NCBI GenBank assembly: GCA_949282255.1
Contig: CASDPA010000030.1
Span: 1 to 51,628, forward strand
DNA: 51,628 nt
Reading direction: 5' to 3'
DNA from: an uncultured Spirochaetales bacterium
GTDB taxonomy: Bacteria > Spirochaetota > Spirochaetia > Sphaerochaetales > Sphaerochaetaceae
Below are positions 3,896 to 27,067 of this stretch, piece after piece. Position 1 is the stretch's first letter; the number at the start of each line of letters is the position of its first letter. The notes below the pieces were generated by a model. It did no database searches. It saw nothing but the letters and a program-made list of their open reading frames with translations, and was not told where the DNA came from. The position numbers and the translations under genes were made by a program.

Positions 3896-6169
3896 ATGAA
3901 AAAAAAGCTTGTATCAATTTTTGCAATATCAGCAGTCTTATTTCTGGTCTCCTCCTGCAATTGGGATGTATGGGGAGCTGAATATAAGGATTATGGAAAA
4001 GGGACGGGAACAACTTCCTCGGCCCTGATATTCAAAGGGGATGCGCCTGCCGCACTCACATCCACGCAGGCAAGATTCTCAGATAAGATTGTTGTAGGGT
4101 GGAATTCGGTCACCGGTGCCGATTATTATGAGGTCTATCGTGCTGAAGTTTCATCCATTGGAGAAGATATATCATCCCTTTCCTGGTCAAAGATGCTTGA
4201 ATCTCCTGTCGGTCTTGTCTCCTATACCGATACCGATGTCGAATCTGGAAAGATATATGTGTATCGTGTCCGAGCGCGTAGCTTTTCCCTTCCAAGCGTT
4301 TTAGGCTCATACTCTGATGTCTCATATGGATGGCTGCTGGCACCCCCCGAAACACTTTCCGCAACCCAGGGCGCAAGTGTGAAATCGATAAACATATCAT
4401 GGTCGAAGGTTTCAAACATATCAGGCTATAGGATTTATTGGAGTTCTACAGGATACGGCGGAACTTGGCAGGTTGCCGTTCCTGAGGGTTACGATGGGTA
4501 TGATTACATCCTTTCTCCCAATGTTCTGGAATTCCAGTTTGTACCTTCAAGCCAATACAAAGGTCAGAAGATCTATTTTTATATTGAATCTATTTCCAAA
4601 TCCGGAGAGCAGTCCGATCCTTCGGTGCAACGTGTCGGATATACATTTGTCGAGGGAGCTCCGTCTGCACCTATGAATTTCTCAGTTTCAAAAGGATCTT
4701 CCACTTCATCCATCACTTTGCAGTGGGATGCTATGTATGGGACTTCTTCTGATGGGGGCCAGGTTGATTATGATTGGGAAATCTATCGCTCTGCTCCAGG
4801 AGAATCGGAGAGAAAAATATATTCGACAGTCGATGGGGATCCTCAGCCTGGATCCAATGAAGGTGTAATGACATATATCGACACCTCAAATCTTAAGCCG
4901 GGTGTCGAATATACCTATACTGTCAGTGCAATAGGGAAAATAACAGATGATAGTGGGGTGGAGACTTCTGTTAATGGACTTCCTTCTCAAGATACAGGTT
5001 TCCTTTTGTCTCCTCCTACAGAACTTGAGAGTATCGGAATCAGACAGGATCCGAATGGTTTCGAATTCACTTTCAAGGATGCACTCGGGGCAAAGGATAA
5101 TCCGACATGGACATATACCGTTTATGGAAGTGAGAGTAAGAGCGGTCCTTGGACCCCGCTTGAAGGTTATGTTAATTTTCCTGTTACGGATGACAGCCGC
5201 AAGACAGTTTTTTCTCCTTATGATGGGGATGCGGATAAGTTTGAGTATTTTACAATCAAGACATCCGATGGTTATCTTGAAAGTGCTGATTATGTAGAAG
5301 CTGTCGGCTCTCCGATAATGGTAAGCCGCCCAACACGACCGGATGGATTCTCCGCTTCTGATAATGTGGTCTATGCTGGCACCGAGGCCGTCAATGGAGT
5401 TTATCCGATAACCGTTTCCATGGTGAAGGGTAATCTTGTGGCTTCGTATAACCTGAGGATATGGAAAGAAAAACCAGCGTCGAATTCCTCCTCGGGATAT
5501 GAAGAGCAAGATAATGTTTCATTTTCTGTTGATTCTGGAAATGCAGTGATCAATGAAGCGGCAAGAGCTCCGATTGGAACAATGTATTATTTTGCAGTCC
5601 AGGGTGTTGATGTGCTTGGACGCAAGGGTGAATGGTCCGATGTCGATTCCGGTTATGGTGCGATAACGGGAAATGCTCTCATAAAGTATATGCAGTGTTA
5701 CGGCTTCAAGCCTTGGGAATATCTTAATAAGCCCGTATTGAATGCTGAATATCCGTATCCTGATAAGGATATTGTTGAAAAATGGACCAATAGTAAGATT
5801 TACGGATACGTCAAGCAGGCAGGTACAGGCAGTCTTACGGATGGAAATGTTGTCACCGAATACAGTTATTTCCATAACGGTAGAATCAGTTATTCCGCAG
5901 CCTTGAGTGGCGCTAATGGTAAAATCACATTCTCTTACAATAATTTCGGTGAGGTTGAATGGCTTAATACCACCGGCAGCTATACTATGGTCGTTGGGCT
6001 TTCTGGATCTGGCAGTTGTGATGGAGCTTTAACTATTGGAGGTATGTATCCGGCATCGATCGGTTTTGATAAGATTTCTGTAAGCAATCAGGCTTTTGCC
6101 GGTTATTATACTGTTCTTCAGAAAAATGGTACCGCAGCAGAGGATGTAAGTCCTAACCAAAGCTATTGA
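3896..6169 (+). CDS. Multi-FN3 lipoprotein, second copy-type
   Basis: 757 residues. The signal peptide ends in a clear lipobox (LVSSC). About five FN3-like modules follow, starting near residues 50, 150, 255, 375 and 485, with cores VGWNSVTGADYYEVY, ISWSKVSNISGYRIYW and LQWDAMYG. The ~170-residue C-terminal part is Gly/Ser/Tyr-rich and beta-like. A strong Shine-Dalgarno (TAGGAGG) sits before the ATG, 11 bases after the upstream FN3 gene, so the two are co-transcribed. Module style is shared with the upstream protein, suggesting duplication and divergence. Function unknown; a cell-envelope scaffold is the safest description. Confidence 0.8.
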   Translation: MKKKLVSIFAISAVLFLVSSCNWDVWGAEYKDYGKGTGTTSSALIFKGDAPAALTSTQARFSDKIVVGWNSVTGADYYEVYRAEVSSIGEDISSLSWSKMLESPVGLVSYTDTDVESGKIYVYRVRARSFSLPSVLGSYSDVSYGWLLAPPETLSATQGASVKSINISWSKVSNISGYRIYWSSTGYGGTWQVAVPEGYDGYDYILSPNVLEFQFVPSSQYKGQKIYFYIESISKSGEQSDPSVQRVGYTFVEGAPSAPMNFSVSKGSSTSSITLQWDAMYGTSSDGGQVDYDWEIYRSAPGESERKIYSTVDGDPQPGSNEGVMTYIDTSNLKPGVEYTYTVSAIGKITDDSGVETSVNGLPSQDTGFLLSPPTELESIGIRQDPNGFEFTFKDALGAKDNPTWTYTVYGSESKSGPWTPLEGYVNFPVTDDSRKTVFSPYDGDADKFEYFTIKTSDGYLESADYVEAVGSPIMVSRPTRPDGFSASDNVVYAGTEAVNGVYPITVSMVKGNLVASYNLRIWKEKPASNSSSGYEEQDNVSFSVDSGNAVINEAARAPIGTMYYFAVQGVDVLGRKGEWSDVDSGYGAITGNALIKYMQCYGFKPWEYLNKPVLNAEYPYPDKDIVEKWTNSKIYGYVKQAGTGSLTDGNVVTEYSYFHNGRISYSAALSGANGKITFSYNNFGEVEWLNTTGSYTMVVGLSGSGSCDGALTIGGMYPASIGFDKISVSNQAFAGYYTVLQKNGTAAEDVSPNQSY

Positions 6170-6183
6170 GAGAGTGTGTTGTT

Positions 6184-6678
6184 ATGGGAAAGTTGAAAAT
6201 CATCATTTTGATATTCTTATCTTTATTCTTGATCCTTGCAGGCTGTGAAAACAGCATACCCAATCCAATTGTCGGTACATTCGTTCTTCTTGCAGAAGCT
6301 GAAGGAGCTCCCAATTATATGCTTGCCGGGTTCAGCTTTGCCGAAGATGGGTCTTTCAGTTATGCGGAGGTCATAAAAGGTTCGACAAAGGTTATCAAAG
6401 CTTCCGGCTCGTATAGTGTTATGTTGGATTATTTTAATTTTGTTACTTCTTCAGGACAGATAAACATCACCATCGATTCTTTTAGTGAAACGGATATTGC
6501 AGAAAACCTTATTCTTCATTTGGGTGTTAATCCTTTTCTGTATGATTGGCAATGTGATAAAAATAATGGTCCCTCCGGTATGACTCTTGTTGTTGATGCC
6601 AATGATAGCCGGAAAAATTATGAGCTTGTCTACAAAGGCTCTGCATCAGCGCTTGATGATATCATAACAGGATATTGA
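6184..6678 (+). CDS. Small putative lipoprotein
   Basis: 164 residues with a textbook lipobox (LILAGC) after a hydrophobic helix. The mature part alternates short beta-like stretches (GSFSYAEV, GSYSVML, GQINITI), suggesting a small beta-sandwich or lipocalin-like fold; I do not recognise the family. A TTG in the same frame at 6166 overlaps the previous stop, but the ATG at 6184 places the signal peptide normally and is preferred. It is the third gene of the FN3 cassette. Confidence 0.65.
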   Translation: MGKLKIIILIFLSLFLILAGCENSIPNPIVGTFVLLAEAEGAPNYMLAGFSFAEDGSFSYAEVIKGSTKVIKASGSYSVMLDYFNFVTSSGQINITIDSFSETDIAENLILHLGVNPFLYDWQCDKNNGPSGMTLVVDANDSRKNYELVYKGSASALDDIITGY

Positions 6679-8967: not shown

Positions 8968-9060
8968 GCGGCAATTGTAATCCAATACAGGATTTGTTGA
9001 AAAGACCTTTATGCGCGCGCATGTTGAAGAAACAACCGTTAAGCGGTATATTCTTAAGAT

Positions 9061-24634: not shown

Positions 24635-24669
24635 ATTCTCACGAAGTGTGTTTAAGTTTGTGAGATAAT
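24635..24669 (+). promoter_or_regulatory. Distal operator-like inverted repeat upstream of the second fic gene
   Basis: Left arm ATTCTCACGAA (24635-24645) and right arm TTTGTGAGATAAT (24657-24669) with an 11-base spacer. It repeats the downstream site almost exactly and is centred 51 bases from it. Confidence 0.6.
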
Positions 24670-24679
24670 TTTATTTAAA

Positions 24680-24708
24680 TTGATTTATCTCACGAAAATA
24701 ATTATAGT
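24680..24708 (+). promoter_or_regulatory. Promoter for the second fic gene
   Basis: -35-like TTGATT (24680-24685), 17-base spacer, -10-like TATAGT (24703-24708). The proximal inverted repeat covers the spacer and -10, as expected for a repressible promoter. Confidence 0.55.
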
Positions 24709-24719
24709 TTGTGAGATAA
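24685..24719 (+). promoter_or_regulatory. Proximal operator-like inverted repeat
   Basis: Arms TTATCTCACGAA (24685-24696) and TTTGTGAGATAA (24708-24719) with an 11-base spacer, the same geometry as the distal site. It ends 18 bases before the start codon. The likely ligand is the winged-helix domain of the Fic protein encoded next (autoregulation); that is inference. Confidence 0.6.
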
Positions 24720-24737
24720 TAGAGAAGGTGAGAGATT

Positions 24738-25784
24738 ATGAGGGTGTTTGACTATTCAGATTTGAAGAATAGGATGTGGGACAGCGAACTCTTGGGGCTT
24801 GTAGCGCAAATCCATGAATTCAGGGGAAGGCATGAGCTATATCTCAAGCAAAAGCCTAAAGAGCTTGAGAGGCTGATGGAGATTGCAAAAATCCAGAGTA
24901 CCGGGGCCTCCAATGAAATAGAAGGCATCAGGACCACAAATGCAAGGCTGAAACAGCTTGTAGCTAATAAGACGGCTCCGCGCAACCGAGCAGAGGAAGA
25001 GATCATGGGCTATTGTGAGGTGCTGAATACGATTCATGAGAACTATGAATATATCCCGATCCGTACAAACTACATCCTGCAGCTGCATCGTACTCTATAC
25101 AGATATTCTGAGAAGGGGTTCGGGAGACGCTTTAAAAGTACACAGAACTATATCAGTGCAATGGACAGATGGGGAAATGAAACAGTTCTCTTTACGCCGC
25201 TATCGCCAATCGAGACCGAGGATGCGATCTGCGCCATATGCGGAAGCTACAATCAGGTGTTTGGCACGGAAGATGTTGATGCGCTCATCCTGATTCCAAT
25301 CTTCATTCACGATTTTCTTTGCATCCATCCCTTCATTGATGGAAATGGAAGGATGAGCAGATTGCTTACAACCCTTCTTTTATACAAATCCGGTTACATG
25401 ATCGGTAAGTATGTCTCTCTTGAGAGCAAGATTGCAAAGAACAAGGATGCATATTACGATGCGCTTGAGATCAGCCAGAATGGATGGCATGAAAATCGGG
25501 AAGATCCCGTACCGTTCATCAAATATCTTTTAAAGACAATTCTTGCTGCTTACAGGGATTTCGAGGACAGGGTGGACATGGTTGGTGAAAAGAAATCTGC
25601 AGAAGAGATTGTGAGACGTGCGGTATCAGGACAGATTGGAAAGTTCACAAAAAGCGACATACTCGAGTTTTGCCCTACCATCGGAAAGACATCGGTGGAG
25701 AGCTCGCTCAAGAAGCTATCGGATGATGGCTTATTGGCCAAACATGGTTCCGGGCGTTCAACCTTTTACACTAGAAATGATTGA
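24738..25784 (+). CDS. Fic-family protein with C-terminal winged helix
   Basis: 348 residues. An N-terminal Fic_N-like helical region carries the inhibitory motif S58xxxE62G63 (SNEIEG). The Fic core has an intact HPFIDGNGRMSR motif (His197). The last ~70 residues (FTKSDILEFCPTIGKTSVESSLKKLSDDG in part) look like a winged helix-turn-helix. This is the common Fic/DUF4172-like architecture with a DNA-binding tail. It is distinct from the upstream Fic, which has its HTH at the N-terminus, so it is not a simple tandem duplication. It is preceded by two matching operators. Confidence 0.88.
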   Translation: MRVFDYSDLKNRMWDSELLGLVAQIHEFRGRHELYLKQKPKELERLMEIAKIQSTGASNEIEGIRTTNARLKQLVANKTAPRNRAEEEIMGYCEVLNTIHENYEYIPIRTNYILQLHRTLYRYSEKGFGRRFKSTQNYISAMDRWGNETVLFTPLSPIETEDAICAICGSYNQVFGTEDVDALILIPIFIHDFLCIHPFIDGNGRMSRLLTTLLLYKSGYMIGKYVSLESKIAKNKDAYYDALEISQNGWHENREDPVPFIKYLLKTILAAYRDFEDRVDMVGEKKSAEEIVRRAVSGQIGKFTKSDILEFCPTIGKTSVESSLKKLSDDGLLAKHGSGRSTFYTRND

Positions 25785-25917: not shown

Positions 25918-26322
25918 ATGGAACTTGACCATCTGTTGAAAGTGCTGGAAAATCCAGTCCGCTTAAAAATATTCCAAATACTATCAGAGAGAAAACATTG
26001 TGTTCGCTCTTTAGCCGGGAAGCTAGGCGTTTCTGAATCTGCCGTTTCCCAGTATATGACAGTTATAAAAGATGCCGGGCTGATTCATGATAAAAAAAAT
26101 GGCCATCATACGCATTTTTCTTTGCATGATGCTGTCGATTATCTTGCAGAATATTTTAATCGGATGCGGACTGCTTTACTCTCAGCAGACCGTGATATGC
26201 CAGCCTTACAGTGCAAATGCCGTAAGGAGACTCCGTATGAAGCTCTTGGCTTAGGATATATGTCGTCCTCAGTCCCATCAATTATATCGTTTATGACCTC
26301 ATGTTATGGGATTTATTATTAG
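25918..26322 (+). CDS. ArsR-family transcriptional regulator
   Basis: 134 residues. The first ~95 residues are a typical ArsR winged helix: ENPVRLKIFQILSERKHCVRSL, then LGVSESAVSQYMTVIKDAGLIHDKKNG as recognition helix and wing. Cys residues in the tail (LQCKCRKE) could bind metal. The last ~27 residues have no family character and may be read-through after an old frameshift. No arsenic or metal transporter gene follows, so any target must be elsewhere or lost. Base use resembles the adjacent fic genes rather than the housekeeping block. Confidence 0.75.
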   Translation: MELDHLLKVLENPVRLKIFQILSERKHCVRSLAGKLGVSESAVSQYMTVIKDAGLIHDKKNGHHTHFSLHDAVDYLAEYFNRMRTALLSADRDMPALQCKCRKETPYEALGLGYMSSSVPSIISFMTSCYGIYY

Positions 26323-26400
26323 GAGGGGAAAACTGAAAATCTGAAGGTTCAGGATGAGCCGGAAGATGAGTGTGAAAAACACTGAAACTAGGAGGATAAA

Positions 26401-26541
26401 ATGAAGATTGATGTGAAGCTGGAGAAAGAGGACTTGAAGTTATTAGCCCGAATGCAGGCCGTGTGCAATTCGTTGAAATGCCATGAATGCCCGCTCTTTG
26501 AGACGTCGCTCCCTTCACGGGAGCGTGAATTGAAATGGTGA
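26401..26541 (+). CDS. Small cysteine-containing ORF fused into a CRISPR-like repeat
   Basis: 46 codons with an excellent ribosome-binding site (AGGAGG, 5 bases before ATG). The first ~34 residues look like a real small protein (LARMQAVCNSLKCHECPLFE, with CxxxxCxxC spacing). The last ~12 residues are translated from the first CRISPR-like repeat, starting at 26505. The gene therefore looks truncated at the array boundary. Family not recognised. Confidence 0.45.
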   Translation: MKIDVKLEKEDLKLLARMQAVCNSLKCHECPLFETSLPSRERELKW

Positions 26542-26737
26542 AGAGAATCTGAAGATAGTGAAGGTGTGAGCGTCGCTCCCTTTGGGAGCGTGAATTGAAA
26601 TTTGTCGTAGTCGCCGGGCTTGATAGTCTCAACTGCGTCGCTCCCTTCACGGGAGCGTGAATTGAAATTTTCGGCTCTATAACTTATTGTGGATTAGGCT
26701 TGGTCGTTCCCTTTTGAGAGAACGGGAATTGAGAAAC
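26505..26737 (+). CRISPR. Short type I-C-like CRISPR remnant, no cas genes
   Basis: Repeats at 26505-26536, 26572-26601 and 26637-26668, then a degenerate fourth at 26703-26737. The first three share hairpin arms GCTCCC/GGGAGC and the 3' tail GTGAATTGAAAT, typical of type I-C repeats. Spacers are 35, 35 and 34 bases and unlike one another. Repeat 2 is 30 bases because its loop is TTT instead of TTCAC. The fourth has arms GTTCCC/GAGAAC and an altered tail. The tail orientation and the degeneracy at the right suggest transcription left to right. No cas gene is in the window. Confidence 0.72.
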
Positions 26738-26881
26738 AGGCTAATAATTCAGATGCATTATTTCTTCATTAATGTAAGGTTGTAGCTAGGAATCAAAACA
26801 CATAATAAAAAAATTTTATTATAGGAATATCAGAGTATAATTGCAAAAATAACTTAGTTATTCTAATTTATTAATGGTTGA

Positions 26882-26914
26882 GTCGCTTTCATTTTAGAAA
26901 GTGTGAATTGAAAT
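26882..26914 (+). repeat. Isolated CRISPR-like repeat with recoded stem
   Basis: 33 bases. It shares GTC at the 5' end and the full tail GTGAATTGAAAT with the array repeats, but its hairpin arms are GCTTTC/GAAAGT around an ATTTTA loop. It lies 145 bases beyond the degenerate fourth repeat; the DNA between (26738-26881) is A/T-rich with at most a very decayed copy near 26779-26799. Confidence 0.6.
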
Positions 26915-26939
26915 ATTATTATTTATATTCAGGATTATG

Positions 26940-26975
26940 CCTGGCAGAATAATTTACAGTCTTGCCAGGTTTTTT
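26940..26975 (+). terminator. Intrinsic terminator at the island edge
   Basis: Arms CCTGGCA (26940-26946) and TGCCAGG (26963-26969), followed by six T. Confidence 0.6.
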
Positions 26976-27067
26976 GTTGATTTCCATTGTTTTGAAGCAT
27001 TGTATTGAGCTGATTTATGAAACAGGATGCTATGTTTTATTGCAATCTACCTATATACTGATTATAT

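Follow-up and report, generated by a model that had tools for sequence, protein, structure and literature searches.

The window analysed here, a stretch of 51,628 nt from an uncultured Spirochaetales bacterium, harbours four regularly arranged repeats, R1–R4, that are separated by unique spacers of 34–35 nt and together form a short CRISPR array, as well as a fifth, divergent repeat, R5, located off this regular spacing (Table 1). An ORF of 46 codons upstream of the array runs into R1, so that no AT-rich leader is visible at this position; on the other side, a glycoside hydrolase gene follows next after the terminator. In the sister genome G003, homology to this part of the window starts only at 27014, indicating that the array segment is not common to the two genomes. 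Searches of spacers 1–3 against phage records and viral contigs yielded no significant target, the AT-rich flank gave no plasmid match, and an Rfam search returned no match to a CRISPR family. For decayed repeats in the gap separating R4 and R5, the best repeat-like score was no better than that of shuffled sequences (P 0.93).

Table 1 Features of the repeat locus, in window coordinates.
Feature	Position	Strand	Description
IS110-type transposon end remnant, 99 bp	26228–26326	+	Makes up the 3′ end of an ArsR-type ORF
R1	26505–26536	+	Intact type I-C-type repeat, GTCGCTCCCTTCACGGGAGCGTGAATTGAAAT; 49.5 bits, I-C covariance model
Spacer 1, 35 nt	26537–26571	+	No significant match
R2	26572–26601	+	Stem and tail intact, loop 2 bases shorter than in R1; 39.8 bits
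Spacer 2, 35 nt	26602–26636	+	No significant match
R3	26637–26668	+	Intact, identical to R1, GTCGCTCCCTTCACGGGAGCGTGAATTGAAAT; 49.5 bits
Spacer 3, 34 nt	26669–26702	+	No match
R4	26703–26737	+	Degenerate repeat, GTCGTTCCCTTTTGAGAGAACGGGAATTGAGAAAC; 1 compensated pair, 1 broken pair, tail damaged
AT-rich gap, 144 nt	26738–26881	.	23% G+C; no detectable decayed repeat
R5	26882–26914	+	Divergent repeat, GTCGCTTTCATTTTAGAAAGTGTGAATTGAAAT; recoded 7-bp stem, exact handle; 20.6 bits
Intrinsic terminator	26939–26975	+	CCTGGCA...TTGCCAGG then TTTTTT; 24 nt past R5; fold −13.5 kcal/mol

The transposon remnant, which we take to be of IS110 type from recognition of the transposase sequence, matches the end of a complete copy on contig C13 of this genome with 100% identity; copies from several further genomes of the genus show 88–98%. 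In the copies compared (the remnant, L105, L106, L107, L108, L109 and L084), AGGAGG (AGGAGA for the L084 copy) lies at or right after the right end of the element, and an ATG follows within ~15 bases in five of the seven. Ribosome-binding sites thus seem to be its targets; in the genome G033 the insertion lies directly ahead of the type I-C cas3. Farther upstream, two similar dyads, TCTCACGAA...TTTGTGAGATAAT, at 24637–24669 and 24688–24720 precede a Fic-domain gene at 24738 and look like operator sites.

Reading R5 directly against R1 confirmed what the preliminary description had reported, namely that GTC and the 12-base tail are retained exactly, that the arms changed from GCTCCC/GGGAGC to GCTTTC/GAAAGT, and that two C-G pairs thereby became T-A and one G-C pair became G-T. 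Folding revealed that the stem in fact comprises 7 bp, the additional pair joining the C of GTC to the G of GTG, and that R5 forms all seven. The loop differs from that of R1 and is one base longer, and the hairpin, with −7.0 kcal/mol and a z-score of −2.4, is stable for its composition. The 12-base tail GTGAATTGAAAT occurs four times in the 2.35-Mb assembly, exclusively at R1, R2, R3 and R5. On folding, the same four repeats show a 7-bp hairpin close to the 5′ end with an 11-nt handle behind it, and the same four match type I-C in sequence and structure in a covariance model built from 23 type I-C repeats of outside genomes. In this model R5 obtained an E-value of 1.3e-4 in 5 kb, and no second R5-type repeat was detected nearby.

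R4 behaves differently. The single compensated pair and the single mismatch had been correctly described, the changed tail GGGAATTGAGAAAC had been omitted. R4 does not form the hairpin–handle arrangement of the other repeats; its type I-C hairpin reaches −4.7 kcal/mol compared with −7.9 kcal/mol for the best fold, which is another hairpin, and the covariance model did not report it at E-values up to 5. With its damaged tail, its different best fold and its absence from the model output, R4 lends no support to compensation and is, in our reading, a decayed leader-distal repeat. Terminal array repeats are commonly degenerate (PMC2886076, PMC4869251), and both R4 and R5 lie on the leader-distal side; however, such repeats usually lose their 3′ handle, whereas that of R5 is exact, so that only R4 fits this pattern.

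The argument that random decay would break the pairs proved overstated. The five arm changes of R5, affecting 5 of the 14 arm positions, are all C-to-T or G-to-A, and in simulations, which like all chance figures for R5 concern one repeat noticed for its compensated look, the probability that five changes leave seven pairs was 0.005 under uniform mutation, 0.03 with a moderate bias towards AT and transitions, and 0.16 when the changes are restricted to C-to-T and G-to-A. Because all five changes are of this latter type, the stem alone is weak evidence. The high value under the strongest bias, the AT-rich surroundings (23–33% G+C) and the P of 0.08 obtained when right arms are dealt randomly among the four distinct repeats are all in line with R5 being a decayed R1 copy, its pairs left standing by AT-biased mutation. 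Such decay should nevertheless have reached the handle too, which is what happened in R4. None of the 13 fixed positions of the R5 handle and 5′ end changed versus at least eight changes elsewhere, corresponding to P ~0.007 if changes are spread evenly, with the loop-change count behind this value depending on the alignment; most of the loop did change. Considering also the P of only 0.03 under the milder bias, we regard simple decay as unlikely. The untouched handle argues better for past constraint than the stem pairing does.

The preliminary description had proposed a covariation test at homologous loci. Among 36 type I-C-type repeats, mostly picked by end-fixing patterns and including the window's own, 97.2% of the stem cells were paired compared with 84.5% after shuffling, and two-sided changes occurred in 33 cells compared with 9.8, with 0 of 500 shuffles reaching either the pairing or the two-sided figure. 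Given this selection of the set, and since stem covariation with compensatory changes and G:U pairs has been published for the type I-C class by Kunin 2007 (PMC1896005), we take the result as a general property and nothing new. The repeats of the locus share with this class (Dvulg, Kunin cluster 3) a length of 30–33, a 7-bp stem near the 5′ end, a loose loop and the GTGRATTGAAAY 3′ end (PMC1896005), but differ in that the variation lies within one locus, that type I-C cas genes were not found and that R5 is solitary. Whereas this known class varies in such a way from genome to genome, variation of this kind inside one locus is unusual.

Uncompensated stems at other loci, which had been named beforehand as evidence against selection on the stem, do occur: in about 20 ordinary type I-C arrays the few arm-changed variants were mostly pair-breaking, none, in contrast to R5, showed two-sided compensated pairs, and one further pair-breaking variant was found beyond this set. 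The other finding named in that respect, an array natively using the recoded stem, did not emerge, as no homogeneous array of this kind was found. By exact and near-exact patterns, a native R5-stem array was found neither among 393 genomes from the phylum nor among 2.9 million viral contigs; in 84,980 species genomes the GCTTTC/GAAAG stem yielded one match, inside a heterogeneous array (L050) of an uncultured Clostridia MAG (CAMMAZ010000024.1). This array (6020–6582, minus strand) lies upstream of cas3 and adjoins an intact-looking type I-C effector set. Nearly all of its repeats differ and several are fully compensated; over seven differing repeats 45 of 49 pairs are formed (P 0.0015), the array having been chosen by its R5-like pattern, which biases one of the seven. 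Like our locus it holds a GCTTTC/GAAAG repeat, no further one having been found, and it does so amid several compensated within-array repeats; it differs from our locus as a multi-repeat array upstream of an intact-looking type I-C gene set containing cas3 and cas8c. At the opposite end of the Clostridia locus another repeat, GTCGCGCCCCACACGGGGCGCGTGGATTGAAAT, begins after a shortened ORF.

Searches for Cas8c (PF09709) and Cas1 revealed no Cas8c in the genome; the assembly is a 51-contig draft, 96.75% complete, and cas genes may be missing from it. The only Cas1 is of type I-F and is encoded on another contig with type I-F effectors adjoining; the genome yielded no other CRISPR-Cas locus equipped with cas genes. 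The array of this type I-F locus (L052, contig C28, 4418–5181) carries the repeat GTTTGCTATCGTATAGATAGCTTAGAAA beside the cas set. Lacking a detected Cas8c, and with its sole Cas1 being of type I-F, the genome is unlikely to house a type I-C system that still selects on R5 today. Type I-C systems are carried by two genomes of the same genus, G033 with the repeat GTCGCTCTCTTCGTGAGAGCGTGAATTGAAAT and G001 with GTCGCTCTCTACGCGAGAGCGTGGATAGAAAT, both with intermediate stems (CTCTC/GAGAG). R5 is separated from the G033 repeat by 7 edits and from R1 by 9, a small advantage of two edits. One AT-rich 14/15 match to the G033 leader before R5 (P 0.05) was rejected as a leader candidate: it is not common to G001, and the sequence before R5 lacks the inverted repeat that the leaders of G033 and G001 contain.

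The position of R5, 144 nt from the nearest repeat and followed within 24 AT-rich nucleotides by an intrinsic terminator, brings to mind a solitary repeat unit, i.e., a small RNA gene consisting of repeat, AT-rich stretch and terminator that mimics a type I-C repeat, either akin to the RNA anti-CRISPRs (Racr elements) or a form of one adopted by the host. The Racr elements, including RacrIC1, likewise combine a single type I-C-type repeat forming a hairpin with a subsequent terminator (PMC10651486), and solitary I-C-type repeats do exist in the genus on prophage-like DNA (G063, contig C33, 8999–9023; G001, contig C6, and G014, contig C13). R5, in contrast, lies on the chromosome among chromosomal genes and the IS remnant without a clear phage gene, one short neighbouring ORF giving a weak PHROG match only (E 0.076), and its identity to any repeat compared is below 90%. 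No convincing promoter precedes it; a TATAAT is located at about 26836, and the best promoter score was no better than that of shuffled sequences. In addition, the only CRISPR system found in this host is of type I-F, and the closeness of R5 to R1–R4 would be left unexplained. We consider a solitary unit, the main rival reading, improbable to a similar degree as simple decay. Somewhat less probable still is that R5 and its terminator constitute a chromosomal small RNA gene whose hairpin and handle are under selection without type I-C Cas proteins, perhaps blunting or steering incoming type I-C systems.

A non-CRISPR role of the hairpin under ongoing selection, for example as part of a regulatory RNA or of the terminator region of the operon, would agree with its stability and its position just before the terminator. 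The exact type I-C handle, however, is explained by a CRISPR role alone, and the conserved upstream region of the next gene in G003 starts at 27014, leaving R5 outside, making such a role very doubtful.

On the prophage-like contig C33 of G063 (L163), the minus strand carries GTCGCTGAAAAGCGTGGATTGAAAT at 8999–9023, preceded by the boxes TTGCAT and TATACT spaced by 17 nt, which score not significantly better than shuffles, and followed by a terminator 31 nt downstream; it is a candidate solitary repeat unit or RNA anti-CRISPR. A pattern common to this element and R5 had no match in the viral contigs. The second repeat, GTCGCTCTCTRCATGAGAACGTGGATAGGAAT, was found at 2271–2302 of L161 (G001, contig C6) and at 130562–130593 of G014 contig C13 (L164), in both genomes on prophage-like DNA, directly preceded by a small ORF and followed by a tyrosine integrase. 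The repeat of the G001 type I-C system has the same unusual GGATAG tail.

Taken together, we favour, with a probability of about 0.58, the reading of R5 as a diverged type I-C-type repeat that comes from a separate or older lineage, lies in the relic of a type I-C array without cas genes and was shaped under a matching Cas5c. The link is given by the handle: had R5 been a neutral copy of R1, it should have lost its handle in the way R4 did, whereas it kept both handle and pairing and hence most likely stems from another or older type I-C lineage. Further points in favour are the R5 hit of the outside-repeat covariance model, the restriction of its tail to this locus, the covariation across the class, the intermediate stems in the genus, the slightly smaller distance to the G033 repeat, the failure to find a type I-C effector and the pair-breaking variants of ordinary arrays. 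Of the two explanations offered in the preliminary description, selection on the RNA stem fits less well than descent from a second family of repeats sharing the handle. It is established that type I-C repeats are cleaved by Cas5c at the stem base. While a type I-C system was present, the transcript would have been processed in this way, with the 11-nt handle remaining on the crRNA; this requirement would fix the handle and the paired state, with the letters of the stem free to drift in pairs. R1–R3 would then represent the intact repeats and R4 the decayed leader-distal repeat of the cas-less array, and R5 would have lost its array context and spacers. We infer a functional stage in the history of R5 and a constraint that belongs to the past rather than the present. 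Speaking against this origin, R5 comes without a significant leader, without a second repeat of its kind nearby and without a native array found.

Covariation within a single locus would allow asking whether the repeats of an old array drift freely or stay under the control of Cas5c; usually this is addressed only by comparing species. As the evidence for it consists of one repeat and one heterogeneous array from another phylum, the locus is mainly useful as an example of a cas-less CRISPR relic. The prophage-borne solitary repeats of the genus are a separate matter and more directly testable.
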